DNA of 48,191 nt from IMG/VR virus record IMGVR_UViG_3300009431_000026, positions 1 to 48,191 of that record; one strand, 5' to 3'. Within the stretch, counting starts at the first letter, position 1; the number at the start of each line of letters is the position of its first letter. Shown in pieces: positions 940 to 24,490 of the stretch. The notes beneath the pieces are model-generated. The model did not search any database. It had not been told where the DNA came from and saw only the letters and a list, made by a program, of their open reading frames with translations. This DNA comes from a virus. The position numbers were made by a program, and so were the translations under genes.

Positions 940-1367
940 TGTTTTCTCCTCAATGCTTCAAGATTAACAGGGGCTTCTGGTTCAAGATGTCTCATTATCT
1001 CTTTATATTCACGGATATTGTCCTTATTCCTCTTATCCCAATTCATATGCTTCCGTACTGAGCCTGGATTCCTACCAGGATGATCCATTTCAGCCCTGGT
1101 TGGCATACCTTCCTTGATCCTACCTTCAAGCTCCTTAGCCTTCTTGTGAAGATTATCTTTCCTTGCACCGGAAACCTTCGGAGCCCTTCCATCATGAAGC
1201 TCTTTATCAAGGTGCTTAATCTCAGCATCCACAGCACCAAGATTGATTTCTCTTGTCCTGCCTGGAGATTCAGCTTCTCTCTTCAGAGCTTCTGCATCCC
1301 TCTTCTGGTCTTCCAACCCTTGCCTCTCACTATAACTCAGTATCTTCTTCTTTTTGCCCCTAGTCAT
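936..1367 (-). CDS. Charged helical protein, function unknown
   Basis: The frame is open from 1448, but the start chosen is the ATG at 1367, which follows an AAGGAGGAAGAG ribosome site and overlaps the stop of the HNH gene as ATGA. The 143-residue product is very basic at the N-terminus (RGKKKK) and rich in Lys, Arg and Glu throughout, predicted mostly helical, ending in a Pro/Glu-rich tail. The helices are interrupted by a PGRNPGS turn. No known domain was recognised. Position among virion genes suggests a minor head or decoration-associated protein, but this is only inference. Confidence 0.55.
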   Translation of the reverse strand: MTRGKKKKILSYSERQGLEDQKRDAEALKREAESPGRTREINLGAVDAEIKHLDKELHDGRAPKVSGARKDNLHKKAKELEGRIKEGMPTRAEMDHPGRNPGSVRKHMNWDKRNKDNIREYKEIMRHLEPEAPVNLEALRRKQ

Positions 1368-1744
1368 CTCTTCCTCCTTATGTTGGGGCGTGAAAGAGAA
1401 TAACCAAGCCCGCCCCTGTTTGGACCTTTCAGTCCTGTTTTTGTCCAATGCTCTAATCTATGGCAGTTAGGACACAAGACTTTTACATTTCCCTTAGAAT
1501 AAGAACCTTCAGCAATTCTATGCCTATCACAAGGTCCTTCCCATCCACACTTGCTACATTTCCGAGCAGGGATGATCCGGTAGTAAGAAGATACATACCC
1601 ACTACCGGTTTTCATCCCATGTTTTTTCTTATGATGCGTAGAGCAGAGCTTCCACCAAATCCGACTTCCATTCTTAGTACGCTTACCCCAGCTTACTAAG
1701 CTAGCACAGCCTTTTACACTGCAAGTCGTTCTTGGCTTTTCCAC
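1364..1744 (-). CDS. HNH endonuclease, free-standing
   Basis: The 126-residue protein has an N-terminal Cys/His cluster followed by CSKCGWEG, CDRHRI and VLCPNCHRLEH. The His-rich stretch and the final NCH..H are the metal-binding and catalytic pattern of HNH nucleases (beta-beta-alpha-metal fold). Unlike the two HNH genes at 2981 and 4279, no group I intron core was found around it, so it looks like a free-standing mobile endonuclease inserted between two virion genes. Its stop overlaps the next start (ATGA), and its tail supplies that gene's ribosome site, so the insertion is well integrated in the operon. The function is probably double-strand cutting or nicking of intron-less or gene-less DNA of related phages. 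Confidence 0.75.
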   Translation of the reverse strand: MEKPRTTCSVKGCASLVSWGKRTKNGSRIWWKLCSTHHKKKHGMKTGSGYVSSYYRIIPARKCSKCGWEGPCDRHRIAEGSYSKGNVKVLCPNCHRLEHWTKTGLKGPNRGGLGYSLSRPNIRRKR

Positions 1745-2780: not shown

Positions 2781-4974
2781 TTACGCTACCTCGTGACCGT
2801 AGCACCATTTAAAATCAGAGAAGCCGTAGCTATATCTGACATAAGTGGACCACTTCGCCAGGTAGGTGTCAAAATCCTTGTCCTTGTTGAACTCCACAGG
2901 AATACGATTGAACCATTTAAGGAACATCTTCGCCATCCTTGAGTCAATCAAGCAGTTATGTTATCGTATAAGTATTTAGCTTATACTTCTTCTTCTTTCG
3001 AAGAAGCTCGGACTATCTCATCCCTTTCGGGGGCGGCACTCGTGTCGGGCTTATTGGTAGCGTCCTCACCCATTAGTCTCTGAGCCTTGCAGCCTACATA
3101 AACCACGCATTCAGCTGCCTTGGTTGCGGATTGCCATATGCTTAACGCACTTAGACGTTTCCGCAGTTCACCACCTTTTCTACTATTACTATGAAACTCA
3201 TCGTGACAACTTGCACAAACAGGAACCACATTCTTCTCTTCTCTAATCAGGTCTGGTCTTACAACCTTAGAGATAACATGATGGAGCTCGACCCCCTTGC
3301 CTCCACAAAAGAAACAAGCAGCCTTCTCCAGTATCCCTTTTCTCCAAGTTCTATACGATGAGTGAGCTAAAAACTGAACACGGTTATTCCAAGTACCACC
3401 CTTCCAGTTAGGCCCTGCATTTACCCAGTTCCTCGATTGCCATTTCCCTTTACACTTAAGATTACAGAAATGAACAGGAAACTGCCTAAGCTGATAAGGC
3501 CACTTAGCTATTGCCTTTCCGCATTCACTACACACTGCATTAACCTTTTTAGCTCTGCTTCTCATAACAATACAGGGTCCTTAATTTAAGTTGAACCAGT
3601 TATTACTGTCAGACAGATAATCCCAAACGATTATCTTGTAGCTATTGTAAGACACATTGATATCGTTCTGTGCTGACCCAACATCTTTCTGCGTACCTAC
3701 AATAATCTTTGCCGTCTCTTCAAGAGCAGGCGGCACCAACAGCGTATCGCCACGAGAAACAACGAGGTTATCCGTCTCATCCGTAAACTGCCTCATAAGA
3801 AGCCTTGTAGCTTCTACAGCAGTCTGAGAAAGAGCCGTGGTTCCCTTGTTATCTATCGTGGTGGATGTCCCTTCATACGTATGGGCATCCGCACAGAGAG
3901 CATATGTGTCACCACCGGTGAACACAGATGTGTTGAAAGCATTGTTAAATACGGTCGCACCATGCTTCTCTCTGCTTCTTTTGGCAATCATCGCCAACTG
4001 AGCAGGCCTCTTGTTGATGATAGAATACAGGTCATCATCCACAAGCTTACGCTCAATTTTAATACCTTTGACCCACTCCCTATGTGTATAGGAAGTTCTG
4101 TACTGTTGCCTGAAGTCACCGTAAGGTATTGTTCCGGTAAATTCCTCCAGGTCGCCTAACCCGCCAATGCCAAGATCATATTCTGTGGCCTTGTTTGATT
4201 TCTCAATGCCGAACAGACTATCAACCTGACCTTCCGGGAGGGCATATTCGTCCATGAAAATCTTACGTAATCCCGGATCTAAGCTTCTTTACTCACCGCA
4301 TTACTGCGGGTTTGGACTATATCATCCCTTTCGGGTGCAGTACATAGTCTCTGAACCTTCCCTTTCGGGCTCGGCTGCTGATTGCCCTCGTCGTTTACCG
4401 GTAGGGTTTCCAGCAATTCTCTGCAAGTGGACTTAGCTCCTCTGTGTAGCTTTGTATGACAGCCCTTGCACAATGTAATGCCATTCTCTATGGAAGTCCT
4501 CAAATGAGGATGTGTAGCAAAAGGAAGAATATGGTGAGCGTGGAGTTTCTTCCTATCCCCACAGCTCTTACAATATCCATCCCTTTCTTTCACAGCCTTC
4601 TTCCATAACATCTGGTCAGCATTATGCCTAATTTTCTCATGTTCAGGGCTTACTCCACCACGCCAGTTAGGATTCAATGAACCTTTAGCCACACCTTTAG
4701 CTCTACGCACCTCAGAAACAGATTTCCGGTGTTCCTGAGACTTAGGGCGTCCAACCATAGACTCACTGATAGAACGAGTCTCAACACCATTCAGATCAAG
4801 ACGATAATATACACCGCGTGGCTTAATACCAAGAGCTTTAGCTATAGCATAAACTCCCTTGCCAGTATTGTATAACCTTATTATCTCTACATCTAAATGT
4901 CTGTTTTTTGACTTATTCATCCAAGTACTCCCTTAGTTGAGATACGCAAAATTTTCGCTAGCAATTATACTCAT
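2781..4974 (-). CDS. Major capsid protein, three exons (two group I introns)
   Basis: The proposed coding join on the minus strand is 4974-4940, 4283-3594 and 2952-2781, giving 298 residues. Joined, the junctions read FAYL|LDPGLRKIF and NNWF|LIDSRMAK, which restore motifs typical of the HK97-fold, Mu gpT-like capsid family (N-terminal FAxLLxPGLRKxF; C-terminal NNWFLxD). Both introns fall in phase 2, after codon positions 12 and 242. Exon 1 starts at an ATG behind AAGGAGGGTTTCA. The unspliced message would stop after 13 codons (MSIIASENFAYLN), so splicing is required for capsid production. The gene follows the scaffold/decoration genes and precedes the beta-helix gene. Product identity is strong; exact splice sites rest on P1/P10 pairing and family fit, not on RNA data. 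Confidence 0.85.
2953..3593 (-). ncRNA. Group I intron 2 in capsid gene
   Basis: This 641-nt intron has a core on the minus strand of GGCTCAGAGACTAATGGG (R) with GAGATAGTCC (S), forming P7, then a CTTCTTCGAAAGAAG hairpin (P9) and a second AT-rich hairpin. The end of exon 2, GGUU|C, pairs with GGACC in the intron with the conserved U-G at the cut site. The intron's UUAAG pairs with exon 3 CUUGA (P10, one G-U). The intron ends in G. It contains the HNH ORF at 2981-3565. Confidence 0.9.
2981..3565 (-). CDS. Intron-encoded HNH homing endonuclease 2
   Basis: 194 residues, inside capsid intron 2. An N-terminal treble-clef-like Cys cluster (CSECGKAI, FCNLKCKGKW) is followed by an NWKGGTW segment often seen before HNH domains in phages. 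The nuclease core is CFFCGGKGVELHHVISK and VVPVCASCHDEFH. Like its sister, its C-terminal codons run through the ribozyme core and encode APERDEIV. Its stop is upstream of the 3' splice site, so the whole ORF is removed by splicing. Presumed role is intron homing. It differs from the first in its N-terminal DNA-binding part, which fits a different target site. Confidence 0.88.
   Translation of the reverse strand: MRSRAKKVNAVCSECGKAIAKWPYQLRQFPVHFCNLKCKGKWQSRNWVNAGPNWKGGTWNNRVQFLAHSSYRTWRKGILEKAACFFCGGKGVELHHVISKVVRPDLIREEKNVVPVCASCHDEFHSNSRKGGELRKRLSALSIWQSATKAAECVVYVGCKAQRLMGEDATNKPDTSAAPERDEIVRASSKEEEV
4279..4920 (-). CDS. Intron-encoded HNH homing endonuclease 1
   Basis: 213 residues, inside capsid intron 1. 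The N-terminus resembles a resolvase-like HTH (DVEIIRLYNTGKGVYAIAKAL), which may give DNA specificity. The middle has a NUMOD-like GRPKSQEHRKS segment, and the nuclease core follows: YCKSCGDRKKLHAHHILPF, then NGITLCKGCHTKLH, with the paired Cys and HH..H..H expected of HNH enzymes. The last ~40 codons are also ribozyme core sequence, and the stop codon lies 5 bases into exon 2. It should cut intronless capsid alleles so the intron is copied in by repair. The C-terminal TAPERDDIV is shared with the second intron ORF, showing that the two introns are related. Confidence 0.88.
   Translation of the reverse strand: MNKSKNRHLDVEIIRLYNTGKGVYAIAKALGIKPRGVYYRLDLNGVETRSISESMVGRPKSQEHRKSVSEVRRAKGVAKGSLNPNWRGGVSPEHEKIRHNADQMLWKKAVKERDGYCKSCGDRKKLHAHHILPFATHPHLRTSIENGITLCKGCHTKLHRGAKSTCRELLETLPVNDEGNQQPSPKGKVQRLCTAPERDDIVQTRSNAVSKEA
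4284..4939 (-). ncRNA. Group I intron 1 in capsid gene
   Basis: This 656-nt intron has an unmistakable group I core near its 3' end on the minus strand: GGTTCAGAGACTA (R segment) and GATATAGTCC (S segment) pair as P7, preceded by the AATCAGCAGCC P/Q region. The last exon base is U, and UCU|C pairs with GGGA a few bases into the intron, placing a U-G wobble at the 5' site. Intron bases CUAAG are exactly complementary to the first five bases of exon 2 (CUUAG), giving P10. The intron ends in G. An HNH gene occupies nearly all of it. Confidence 0.9.
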
Positions 4975-6871: not shown

Positions 6872-7078
6872 CTACTCGCCTTCCCTTTCCTTGACATCTT
6901 CAGGAAGACGCTTTATCTCTTCATAAACCTGTAATTTGAGCTGTGTTGCACCCAAATCATCCATAGAGCAGGTCTTGAGCTGACTAAGCAATCCAGCTAT
7001 CCTGTAATCCAGCTCTTTCTGCACTATCTGCCACTCCTCTGACAAACCGACACGCTGAGCCTGTTCAAAGTTTATCAT
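6872..7078 (-). CDS. Small helical protein downstream of portal
   Basis: 68 residues, acidic and helical (EEWQIVQKELDYRIAGLLSQL). The start overlaps the portal stop as ATGA, so translation is probably coupled. No domain recognised. Similar-sized proteins between portal and scaffold genes are common in podophages; a portal-assembly or head-completion helper is possible but unproven. Confidence 0.5.
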   Translation of the reverse strand: MINFEQAQRVGLSEEWQIVQKELDYRIAGLLSQLKTCSMDDLGATQLKLQVYEEIKRLPEDVKEREGE

Positions 7079-8829
7079 TTTGCTCCTTGTGGTTGGGGCG
7101 GAGCATTAGCCCCTGCCCGTGGTCCAAGCATCTCTGCCTTTATTTGCTCAGGAGAAGCCCCTTCAGCCAGTCTCTGCTGTATAGACATCATATCGTTGGT
7201 TCCAAGCTGTTCTGTACCACGAGTCTGCTGGATAGGCGTGAGAAGCTTTTCTATGTCCTTAAAGCCCATAAGTTCGGCTATACGCCTATTTATCTCCTGC
7301 CTGTTTATAGTAGGATCTTGTACAGTTATCTCTTTGAACCTTAACAGCTGACCCACCATAGTCTCTTTGTTTATAGTCTCAGATACACCAGTAGGTATAA
7401 ACAGTACCTTAGCCTGTATCTGCTCAGGTGTTATCTTTATAGGCATTACCTTCCCGTTCTTACCGGTTATCTGCACCCACTCTCCCTCAGTCATAAATTG
7501 CTTCAGATTAGAGAAGAAGAACATAGCAAGCTCAGCAATAAGGTCAGTCTCAAGCCTTCTCAGCACAGGCCTGAACCTCATACCTGCAGCACCCTGTAAC
7601 AGCTGGATACCCATAGCCGTACGATGCTCACTACCCACTTCAGGCATCAGGTTAGCTATAGCTCCTGTCGACTCCCTAAAGTCGTTCTTCGCTGTCTCTT
7701 CTTCTTTATAGCTTGATTGAGTCACATCAGGTATATCCATCCATCTCAAAGAAGTAACCGTGTCAGATACTCTATGCCACTTACCAGGCTCTGACATCTG
7801 GAGTTTCTTCGTGTTGATAAGAGGATCGTTACCGTTATAGCAACCCTGCCTGTTAAGTACAAGGTCAACATTATCAAGACGTGTATTCACTATCTTGTTA
7901 ATACGCTCCTGCGTGGGCATACCGGTTTGGCCTATACCAACACCAAACCAGTTAGGCTTGGGATCTTCGAAGAGCTTGAACTTGCAGAAAGGAGGAGATT
8001 GGTGGTTGTAGGGGTTTGGTATGCCACGCAGCTTTATATCTCTGTTTATCACGATAATCCAATAAGGGACAGCTATCCTGACCTTATCCTCTTCACCGTC
8101 TTTATACGACTCATCCCACGGTCCCCAGTAATCTAACACTTCGTATTCTTTAGCCTTAGTCTGGTTATACTTGCTATCAGCGTTGGGTGACTGTGTCTTG
8201 AGAGCTTCTTTAAGATTCTCTGAATCAAACCTGGAATCAGCCGCTAATTTCTTCAATGACTCTTCATCTATGTATCTACGCCTTATAAGAGGCAGAGGAT
8301 CCCTCACTCTGAGTTTAGCTGGATGCGGGAACATCTCAAAGAAGTCAGCAAACTTACAATCAGGCCTACCTTCTATAGGAACAAAATACCTGTTTCCCTG
8401 ATCATCAGATTGCCATCCCTTTCTAACATACCAGGAACCACCCTCAGCATAACCCGTACCAAGCAAAGTACATTGCGTAAGACTGGGATAAGTCTCACCC
8501 TGAACGTTAGAAACCCTGAAATGATGTTGAATAATCCCCTTTATGATTATACCTTGCTCTTGAGGAGCATCTCCTTCAACATGAACATCCATAGGTGCAT
8601 CAGTAGGAAAGAGTGCTGTAAAGAGCCTAGGTGTGATAGTTTGCTCCCCTTCAACCATCAAAGGCACATTTATATTGTTCTGCCAGCTATAACCCTTCTT
8701 AGGAATCTTATTATGCCAGTAGTCAATAATCTTCTCAGCTTTCTGAAACCTCTCGCTATGATAGCTCTCATAACGCAGAAACTCAGTCACTACATGATCG
8801 ACCATAGAGTCTTTTAATTTGTCAGCCAT
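7075..8829 (-). CDS. Portal protein
   Basis: 584 residues, typical length for podovirus-type portals. The N-terminal region contains WQNNINVPLMVEGEQTITPRLFTALFP, a motif recurring in large phage portals, followed by the wing and stem regions with RINKIVNTRLDNVDLVLN and the helical KNDFRESTGAIANLMPE. The C-terminus is Gln/Pro/Ala-rich. It forms the dodecameric ring through which DNA enters and leaves and to which the adaptors at 46.6-48.2 kb should bind. It sits downstream of terminase and the fibre genes and directly upstream of scaffold, the usual order. Start ATG at 8829 is preceded by AGGAGGATCT. Confidence 0.85.
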   Translation of the reverse strand: MADKLKDSMVDHVVTEFLRYESYHSERFQKAEKIIDYWHNKIPKKGYSWQNNINVPLMVEGEQTITPRLFTALFPTDAPMDVHVEGDAPQEQGIIIKGIIQHHFRVSNVQGETYPSLTQCTLLGTGYAEGGSWYVRKGWQSDDQGNRYFVPIEGRPDCKFADFFEMFPHPAKLRVRDPLPLIRRRYIDEESLKKLAADSRFDSENLKEALKTQSPNADSKYNQTKAKEYEVLDYWGPWDESYKDGEEDKVRIAVPYWIIVINRDIKLRGIPNPYNHQSPPFCKFKLFEDPKPNWFGVGIGQTGMPTQERINKIVNTRLDNVDLVLNRQGCYNGNDPLINTKKLQMSEPGKWHRVSDTVTSLRWMDIPDVTQSSYKEEETAKNDFRESTGAIANLMPEVGSEHRTAMGIQLLQGAAGMRFRPVLRRLETDLIAELAMFFFSNLKQFMTEGEWVQITGKNGKVMPIKITPEQIQAKVLFIPTGVSETINKETMVGQLLRFKEITVQDPTINRQEINRRIAELMGFKDIEKLLTPIQQTRGTEQLGTNDMMSIQQRLAEGASPEQIKAEMLGPRAGANAPPQPQGAK

Positions 8830-10151: not shown

Positions 10152-12990
<2,839 letters not shown>

Positions 12991-13226: not shown

Positions 13227-14759
13227 CTATCTCCTCTCCTCAACAAGGCTATGATAAGAACCCTTACTGGGACTCTTTACCGGATACTTAGCGTAATCTC
13301 CCGCATATGAGACTTCTGACTCATCCTCTTCCGGCTGGACATATGTAGGCCCCGCATTGTAGATATACCGCAAACAGTCCATAAAGTGATCATCCTTCTT
13401 TCTAGCCGTGTTTCTTTCATCAAACTGGTCCGTATTGTGCTTTCTCTCGCTATATATGTAATGCTGGAACTCATAGATGGTTTTCTGGCAGAAACGTGAG
13501 ATATTAAGCTGAGGCTGACTTGTACCGTAGAGATGTACGTACTTAGGCTTCAAAGCCGCTTTAATACGACTTTTGCCCAAATCAGGATCATTGTTAGCCC
13601 TTTCGCAGAAAATCCCATATTTCATCAGTTCCTTGCGGATATTAAATCCTCCGGCTAGCTGGTTCTCCTTGTCCATAGCAGGGTCTATGAACCGCCTGGA
13701 GGGAGGGAGATCGCCCTCCTGGGCGTGTATAGCGTGGGCTACCTGCTCTATATCCATGTCCTTCAACCACAATTCATCGTACAGATAGTGGTTCTCATTA
13801 GGATCAACAGCTAGCCAGAGGCATGCAGTAGGCGTTCTTGGGTGAGGATCTATGCAAAAGTACCTCGTCCAGTGCTTTTCCACCTTCGGAGGCTCACAAA
13901 TATGGAGATTTTGGTCAAATTCCTTGTAAATCAGGCCCGTAAGGTGCAGGAAACGTCCATGAAGACGTGCTTCCTGCTCCTCATCGGTCAATTTCTCCTC
14001 AAATTCCTTGATCGCCCGCTCTCCACCGGGTAATTTGGTATTATCTCGTATATCCACGACTTCTACGAACACCTTTTTACCATCTGCTTTAAGAAATATC
14101 TCATCATAAATCCATGGCTGGGTCAAAGGGGTGAGAGTGAGCCAGTCTCTCCCTCTGAAGTCTACTAGTCCACGCAATGTGGCTATATACTTGTCTCTCG
14201 GAGGTGGTTCATCAAACCAAGCACAATGACCCCGCCAACCTTCAAAGCTCTCTGTGTTCATTTCATACGACAGTATGTCGAACTGAGAGCCGTTTTTAAG
14301 CATCCACTTGATAGGAACGCCCATAGGATTGCGTTTCTTGCCGTTTTTAGCTAAAAGTGAGGAATCAAGGTTTTCATCGAGGAAGGGGATAATAACCTCA
14401 CCTACCCCCTTTTGGAAGTCCTTTGCTACTATACGCCCCATTACAGGGCCCTTATACCGCTGAGCAGCAGGATACCACCCAGGATAGATACCCGTCATAT
14501 GGAAAAGGAACTCCATTCCCCCCGCATATGTCTTACCAGAGCGATTTCCACCGAAGATAGCCCTGGTCTGAGCAGAGGCTTTGTGAAAGGAAAGCTGCTT
14601 AGGATGAGGTTCGTAGTACAGAAGTCGCTTAGACTTACGATACTGTATCTCCTCATTCAGCAGATCAAGATACTTCTCCTGATCCTTCCTGCCCAAGGCT
14701 TCGAATTCCTCTTGGGTTAAGTGCCCTTTGAGCGATCGCTGAGAGCTTTTTGAACTCAT
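13227..14759 (-). CDS. terL: Terminase large subunit
   Basis: 510 residues, normal length. The ATPase domain has PHPKQLSFHK, a Walker A-like GGNRSGKT at 70-77, and Walker B CAWFDEPP with D183/E184. The nuclease domain begins YFCIDPHPRTPTACLWL (first catalytic Asp near 304) and has further acidic residues in RFIDPAMDKEN and KKDDHFMDCLRYI. It powers DNA packaging and cuts the concatemer. It overlaps the small-subunit gene by 95 bases, longer than usual; a later start cannot be excluded, but the whole N-terminus fits the family. Confidence 0.92.
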   Translation of the reverse strand: MSSKSSQRSLKGHLTQEEFEALGRKDQEKYLDLLNEEIQYRKSKRLLYYEPHPKQLSFHKASAQTRAIFGGNRSGKTYAGGMEFLFHMTGIYPGWYPAAQRYKGPVMGRIVAKDFQKGVGEVIIPFLDENLDSSLLAKNGKKRNPMGVPIKWMLKNGSQFDILSYEMNTESFEGWRGHCAWFDEPPPRDKYIATLRGLVDFRGRDWLTLTPLTQPWIYDEIFLKADGKKVFVEVVDIRDNTKLPGGERAIKEFEEKLTDEEQEARLHGRFLHLTGLIYKEFDQNLHICEPPKVEKHWTRYFCIDPHPRTPTACLWLAVDPNENHYLYDELWLKDMDIEQVAHAIHAQEGDLPPSRRFIDPAMDKENQLAGGFNIRKELMKYGIFCERANNDPDLGKSRIKAALKPKYVHLYGTSQPQLNISRFCQKTIYEFQHYIYSERKHNTDQFDERNTARKKDDHFMDCLRYIYNAGPTYVQPEEDESEVSYAGDYAKYPVKSPSKGSYHSLVEERR

Positions 14760-23886: not shown

Positions 23887-24161
23887 ACTATCCCCTTAAG
23901 TTTGCTTACTTCTTCTTCCACCACATTACCCAATTCCACTATTTCTGCCCTTGGCTCTACCTTTGGTCGCCTTGGTTTAAGTGCCATATCCAACGCCTTA
24001 ATCATACAGCTTATACATATATGCCGCTCTTGCTTTGGGTTTTCATCAGTCAGAACTATATCGTTTCCCCTCTTACTCCCACAGTAATCACACAAAGCAT
24101 CACTTGCTTGTATAGTTAGATTTGGCGTTGATGTTGCCGTTGGCTTAGAGAACCATGTCAT
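23883..24161 (-). CDS. Zinc-finger protein
   Basis: 92 residues from the ATG at 24161 (AGAGGTGGGT in front; a GTG two codons earlier is possible). DALCDYCGSKRG and HICISCMIKALD give a CxxC...CxxC pair resembling the ClpX-type zinc finger of short phage proteins. A basic/Pro linker and an acidic helix follow. Function unknown. Confidence 0.55.
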   Translation of the reverse strand: MTWFSKPTATSTPNLTIQASDALCDYCGSKRGNDIVLTDENPKQERHICISCMIKALDMALKPRRPKVEPRAEIVELGNVVEEEVSKLKGIV

Positions 24162-24490
24162 ACCCACCTCTTTCTTGCCGATTTACTCAGCTTTTCTTTA
24201 TGTTTTCTTGAAAAAACTCGCCCCCTAAAACGTTTGCTTAAATTAGCACCATGCTCCATAAATCTACAATTCTCAAAAACATAACCTTGCTTGTCATCAA
24301 TTCTATCCACAGTAGGCTTCTGCATTTCATACGCCTTATCACGAAACCACATAATCTTCAACTGAGAGCAAGTCAACGTGGACTTCCTACCCCTGTAATA
24401 CTTACTATAACGCAACCTATTCGCAATATAATCTTGATGCTTTACCCAAGGGTTACTATCCCTATACCGCTTCTTAATTTTATATCGCAT
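24158..24490 (-). CDS. HNH-type/NUMOD phage nuclease-like protein
   Basis: 110 residues, very basic. LTCSQLKIMWFRD, KPTVDRIDDKQGYVFENCRF and MEHGANLSKRFRGR match small phage proteins of the HNH-related group in which VDRIDxxxGY..NCR is the conserved core; the C-terminal FSRKHKEKLSKSARKRW is a NUMOD3-like DNA-binding repeat. It is the first gene after its own consensus promoter (24511-24539), with GGAGGGTATT as ribosome site. Probably a free-standing mobile endonuclease. Confidence 0.65.
   Translation of the reverse strand: MRYKIKKRYRDSNPWVKHQDYIANRLRYSKYYRGRKSTLTCSQLKIMWFRDKAYEMQKPTVDRIDDKQGYVFENCRFMEHGANLSKRFRGRVFSRKHKEKLSKSARKRWV

Follow-up and report, generated by a model that had tools for sequence, protein, structure and literature searches.

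The capsid gene of the virus recorded as IMGVR_UViG_3300009431_000026 in IMG/VR—the 48,191 nucleotides of which record constitute the window analyzed here—raises the question of how a reading frame that closes shortly after opening can encode a head protein. The capsid frame opens at position 4974 on the minus strand, to which strand all the features of the gene and its inserts belong, and when left unspliced reads MSIIASENFAYLN before a stop; that is, it ends after 13 codons, as the earlier note had claimed. When exon 1 (4974–4940; codons 1–11 plus 2 nt, with the 3' end ...UAUCU, as aligned to intronless alleles), exon 2 (4283–3594; 690 nt), and exon 3 (2952–2781, including the stop codon) are joined, the resulting gene of 897 nt encodes 298 amino acids plus the stop, with no internal stop. 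This three-exon join, already proposed in that note, was borne out both by the stop-free frame and by a spliced protein-to-DNA alignment from which the junctions were withheld, and which located the three exons. The two queries—the window protein and the family consensus—gave exactly the same junction coordinates as the join; the spliced aligner favors a U before the intron and a G at the intron end, so that these two bases are partly built in, while most of the sites are fixed within a base or two by the protein alignment alone. The joined protein matched the Pfam family Phage_capsid_4 (PF25209) from residue 6 to residue 286 with 56.4 bits (cut-off 27; 7e-15), which match bridges both exon junctions above the curated cut-off and agrees with the family conservation that had been described across them. 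The Pfam search also matched the Mu-like gpT, and PHROGs assigned the protein as a major head protein. Among the neighboring genes, Pfam and PHROGs identified the portal (7075–8829) and the large terminase subunit (13227–14759). Another gene of the window (10152–12752, minus strand) encodes an 866-aa protein with long collagen-like GDTG-type repeats at the N-terminus, which product is probably a tail fibre.

The two gaps between the exons were matched by the Rfam model RF00028 over its full length and above the gathering score of 50 bits, where covariance-model matches had been expected: intron 1 (4939–4284; 656 nt, beginning CAACUAAGGGA and ending ...AAG) with 53.4 bits at 4487–4294, and intron 2 (3593–2953; 641 nt, beginning CAACUUAAAUUAAGGACC and ending ...CUG) with 50.2 bits at 3226–2989. 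The same search over the whole window gave no further group I intron at E<1. The core helices P3, P4, and P7 occur in order in both introns—at 4425–4421/4340–4336, 4416–4411/4380–4375, and 4349–4345/4319–4315 in intron 1; and at 3175–3171/3036–3032, 3166–3161/3129–3124, and 3078–3074/3015–3011 in intron 2, whose P4 holds one C–A mismatch—and both introns have a U–G pair in P1 at the 5' splice site and a terminal G. Minimum-energy folding of the cores alone gave weak support (z of −2.9 and −1.8). The P1 pairings previously pointed out are indeed present in the sequence: the internal guide GGGA of intron 1 (4932–4929) pairs with UCUC, the splice site lying before the final C (U–G pair 4940/4931), and the guide GGACC of intron 2 (3580–3576) pairs with GGUUC, likewise split before its final C (U–G pair 3594/3579). 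As to P10, the strand CUAAG of intron 1 (4936–4932) pairs with the start of exon 2 (CUUAG, 4283–4279) just as had been described; the pairing proposed for intron 2 is also real, but longer than was thought, with AAUUAAG (3586–3580) and the start of exon 3 (CUUGAUU, 2952–2946) forming 7 pairs, including one G–U. In intron 1, P1 has only 4 pairs and P10 has 5. By sequence, then, both inserts are group I introns, whose self-splicing is predicted, and the original observation of a capsid gene interrupted by two such introns proved right in substance.

Each intron contains an HNH endonuclease ORF, as had been inferred. That of intron 1 (HNH 1; 4920–4279, 213 aa) matched PF01844 (4.1e-08) and phrog_8446 (3e-15), and that of intron 2 (HNH 2; 3565–2981, 194 aa) matched phrog_1271 (9.1e-12), being clear in the PHROGs HNH families and below the Pfam curated cut-off for PF01844 (0.00085); an HH...N...H motif is readable in both. 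The supposition that the two introns were related holds, but only as a distant relationship: the HNH proteins are 26% identical over 140 positions, and the nucleotide likeness between the introns is confined to 25 nt of the core, which figures rule out that either intron was recently copied into the site of the other. Outside the introns, the window also contains a free-standing endonuclease gene (24158–24490, minus strand), which matched endonuclease and HNH families in PHROGs at 2.7e-06 at best, and a small protein (1364–1744, minus strand) with an HNH-like CPNCHRLEH pattern, for which protein Pfam and PHROGs gave no match.

When IMG/VR was searched for the joined protein, 51 loci were returned, most of them with a one-piece capsid 62–82% identical over residues 1–298, and after further scans the distinct uninterrupted alleles came to about 40. 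These related genes read straight through both junctions, so that the intronless alleles at codons 12 and 242 that the earlier note had suggested seeking do exist. Named phages gave only remote capsid matches, of at most 33% identity, and the genome contigs searched gave no cellular relatives. One otherwise uninterrupted gene (L120:3501–4396) presented apparent frame breaks from about codon 147 with no Rfam group I match, which breaks are likely a frameshift, an assembly error, or an aligner error. Two other candidates were discarded: a C-terminal interruption in L027, suspected from the spliced alignment, where the DNA is intact; and an "intron" at codon 102 of L050, an aligner artefact or contig error.

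In this one uncultured phage lineage, 17 distinct capsid alleles together contained 28 mapped introns, distributed over eight sites; this lineage-wide hotspot is the notable and surprising part of the finding. Designating each site by the number of full codons before the junction plus the extra bases (11.2 thus being the codon-12 site and 241.2 the codon-242 site), the commonest was 11.2, occupied in eight alleles (window intron 1, L033, L034, L036, L045, L077, L106, and L112), along with 15.0 (L039, L044, L114, L212), 16.2 (L045, L112, L113), 94.0 (L044, L046, L212), 233.0 (L043), 271.1 (L034, L039, L042, L114, L212), 291.2 (L036, L042, L076/L124), and 241.2, occupied by window intron 2 only in this virus. 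The Rfam scores were above the cut-off at 11.2, 15.0, 16.2, 241.2, and 291.2, and below it, though still in support of the sites, at 233.0 (44.4 bits), 271.1 (35.2), and 94.0 (26.6). The view that two introns in one capsid gene are unusual must accordingly be tempered within this lineage, since at least two are present in 10 of the 17 intron-bearing alleles and three in one of them (L212:666–3772; sites 15.0, 94.0, and 271.1), in which allele 2210 nt of intron lie within the 897-nt gene. In two alleles (L045:2842–5630 and L112:2512–4346) the introns at codons 12 and 17 leave a 15-nt exon between them, and both alleles splice in silico to the conserved lineage motif YLLDPGLRKIF; the skipping of that exon would keep the frame and drop five residues. 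The codon-292 introns (L124:1146–1714, representing L076; L036:5150–5774; and L042:1316–1907) extend the capsid frame through their own 5' ends to the capsid-like termini FGSEVA, FGSQVS, and MGHEVS, each followed by a stop, and splicing gives YGHEVA, YGQNVS, and YGHQVS, again before a stop; a capsid with this intron would consequently be complete either spliced or unspliced. In L046:4299–5000, at site 94.0, an A takes the place of the usual terminal G, which intron is possibly a dying one, or else contains a sequence error.

The pairings at the splice sites recur throughout the set. In 25 introns the mean score of P1 with its U–G pair was 13.5, versus 7.2 ± 0.96 at random U-ending exon sites, the maximum in 200 random sets being 10.0; while the mean P10 score was 10.1, versus 5.06 ± 0.46 at random exon positions, with none of 1000 controls reaching it. 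P10 moreover tracks the exon: three alleles at 271.1 pair through AAACGU/ACGUUU, AGAUGU/ACAUCU, and UAUAU/AUAUA, and at 11.2 the CUAAG/CUUAG of the window becomes CUAAU/AUUAG in L034. P3, which always stands 4 nt before P4, paired in 70 of the 70 cells—14 introns and ten different strands, the strands having been chosen by eye—where random dealing of the partners gave 40 on average and never more than 58, so that this helix is supported by compensatory changes across the 14 introns.

The rival explanation that survives best, though we consider it very improbable, is that of a broken gene, in which the introns would no longer splice and the genome would be defective or would use another capsid gene. 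The shortness of P1 in intron 1 might be so interpreted, and the terminal G lost from the codon-94 intron of L046 indicates that some copies in the lineage may be dead; but in the window the ribozyme helices and splice pairings are intact, the same virus was recovered in three assemblies, and the three exons are under the same purifying selection, with a pN/pS of about 0.17–0.25 in each of them against the nearest relatives without introns (L001 and L002). Exon 3, lying behind both introns with a pN/pS of about 0.2, is therefore still selected as protein. That the inserts would be removed otherwise than at the RNA level, as inteins or by translational bypass, has a negligible probability: the endonuclease frames are long and reach close to the 3' junctions, but the capsid frame meets a stop at most 13 nt from each 5' junction—which in-frame stops rule out an intein—and each insert scores as a group I intron in the covariance model, with the U–G pair and terminal G in place. 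Equally negligible is the probability that the inserts arose in assembly or through the merging of several viruses into one chimera, for, though the record is derived from a metagenome and some related contigs end within the capsid gene, the splice pairings fit the flanking exons, and two IMG/VR contigs from other datasets represent the same virus, with 99.98% identity over 4.6 and 9.3 kb and both introns present; these contigs, along with the uninterrupted alleles, remove both an assembly error and the reading of the inserts as coding sequence.

We therefore hold it highly probable that the capsid gene is split by two mobile group I introns, that the transcript is spliced to give a normal 298-aa protein, and that the introns spread through homing driven by the HNH endonucleases. 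In such a mechanism the internal guide would pair with the last bases of the exon to form P1, with the U–G pair at the cut, where an external guanosine would attack; the freed exon would then attack after the last G of the intron, with the assistance of P10, thus joining the exons that encode the capsid protein. The HNH endonucleases, for their part, would most likely cleave, at a conserved codon, those capsid alleles of co-infecting relatives that lack the intron, and repair of the cut allele would copy the intron in.

The distribution of the endonucleases is consistent with this mobility. At sites 11.2, 15.0, 16.2, and 241.2 the introns encode HNH proteins or have no ORF (L112 and L113 at 16.2), while those at 94.0, 233.0, 271.1, and 291.2 encode LAGLIDADG proteins, which were below the Pfam cut-off at 94.0 and 233.0; in addition, a 1410-nt intron (L045:3590–4999) contains a single 446-aa frame fusing an HNH domain with a LAGLIDADG_2 domain. 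HNH 1 shares 40–62% identity with the endonucleases of the other codon-12 introns, and every close relative of it in IMG/VR is located in a capsid intron at that site; the more distant relatives L141–L144 had no group I match nearby. HNH 2 has no close relative outside this virus, and the 3' core of its intron is 83–90% identical over 42–58 nt to the introns at 15.0 and 16.2. Introns occupying the same site thus group into lineages, while intron 2 may be related to those at the neighboring sites 15.0 and 16.2 as a cousin that was transposed. As the codon-242 site yielded no second intron to compare with intron 2, the one item of comparative support that points to its mobility is the HNH ORF. 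The codon-12 site is occupied in the eight scattered alleles and empty in about 40; the codon-242 site is represented by empty alleles and by this virus alone. The well-supported branches of the capsid tree force at least 10 changes between some introns and none. The DNA in which the intron sites lie is, moreover, better conserved than that at random positions (p=0.006, in a test where three of the eight sites are neighbors and hence not fully independent), which conservation, together with the scatter of the introns, fits homing into conserved codons; we infer that the eight sites would have been filled through repeated homing and transposition.

How the endonucleases are expressed from introns that would excise themselves is suggested by the arrangement of the frames. 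In all 15 introns at 11.2, 15.0, 16.2, and 241.2 the capsid frame stops no more than 21 nt past the 5' junction, usually with a stop touching the internal guide; in the two window introns the stop is a UAA within 13 nt of the junction, immediately ahead of the guide or a single base away from it. Among the LAGLIDADG introns measured, the capsid-frame stop falls at nt 40–162. The HNH 1 frame starts 7 nt downstream from a Shine–Dalgarno-like AAGGGAG around the guide of intron 1, traverses the whole ribozyme core, and finds its first stop (4281–4279) in exon 2, past the 3' splice site; a closed HNH 1 frame therefore exists only in unspliced RNA. The HNH 2 frame likewise traverses the core of its intron. 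Both are stop-free through the core, the other two frames having 2 and 2, and 9 and 5, stops, and the two introns that lack an ORF are interrupted by stops in every frame. The simplest reading would be that a given RNA either folds and splices or is translated for the endonuclease. A more far-reaching reading, which we consider less likely than not, would make the capsid gene of this lineage a permanent multi-site home for group I introns, whose endonucleases are HNH, LAGLIDADG, and in one case a fusion of the two, with up to three introns per gene and exons down to 15 nt. Splicing would then exclude translation of the endonuclease, and the reverse: in HNH introns of the window type the exon frame would stop at the guide, which guide would double as the ribosome-binding site for the core-overlapping frame.

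Capsid introns, multi-intron structural genes, and small exons between introns are each known already. The mycobacteriophage LittleE has a probable group I intron in the major capsid gene, with splicing demonstrated by RT-PCR, intronless alleles in relatives, and an endonuclease ORF (PMC3706429), and a further probable one is cited there for the lactococcal phage Tuc2009. The capsid intron, endonuclease ORF, and intronless relatives of LittleE have their counterparts here, where splicing is predicted from sequence; but those phages have one intron each, whereas the window has two HNH introns and the lineage eight sites, and in LittleE the ORF resembles LAGLIDADG proteins and runs on the opposite strand. 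The staphylococcal phage Twort, as cited in PMC11878797 and PMC3073962 from Landthaler and Shub (1999), has three group I introns in orf142, likewise a single virion structural gene, though for the tail tube; the exon skipping attributed to that gene in those citations would be a real risk in the present one. The tape measure gene of the Vibrio phage ICP1 has three introns with exchangeable HNH genes (PMC10448857), thus resembling the present lineage as a multi-intron structural gene with HNH turnover between alleles; but the ICP1 introns have the same splice junctions in all isolates, whereas in the present lineage it is the positions of insertion that vary. An example of a small exon flanked by introns is known from phiNIT1 (PMC11878797), and in core creep, as in I-TevI, the endonuclease frame extends into the ribozyme core with a 20-nt overlap (PMC3073962); the window frames similarly enter the core, there covering it from P3 through P7' in both introns. 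In the open literature, to which our search extended, we found no report of one capsid gene with this many intron sites. In the Bastillevirinae, by contrast, group I introns are found in genes of DNA and nucleotide metabolism and in the terminase, and the paper asks why colonization is limited to such genes (PMC11878797), on which question the crowding of introns into a structural gene in the present lineage bears.

Because each virion requires hundreds of copies of the capsid protein, efficient splicing is necessary for all the introns in the gene. Gene callers would report such intron-split capsid genes as fragments. The 15-nt exons provide a sharp test of the minimum exon length that a group I intron requires, and the core-crossing endonuclease frames an equally sharp one of how translation and splicing are kept apart; while the eight occupied sites in one 897-nt gene, beside the approximately 40 empty alleles, constitute a natural experiment in the gain, loss, and homing of introns.
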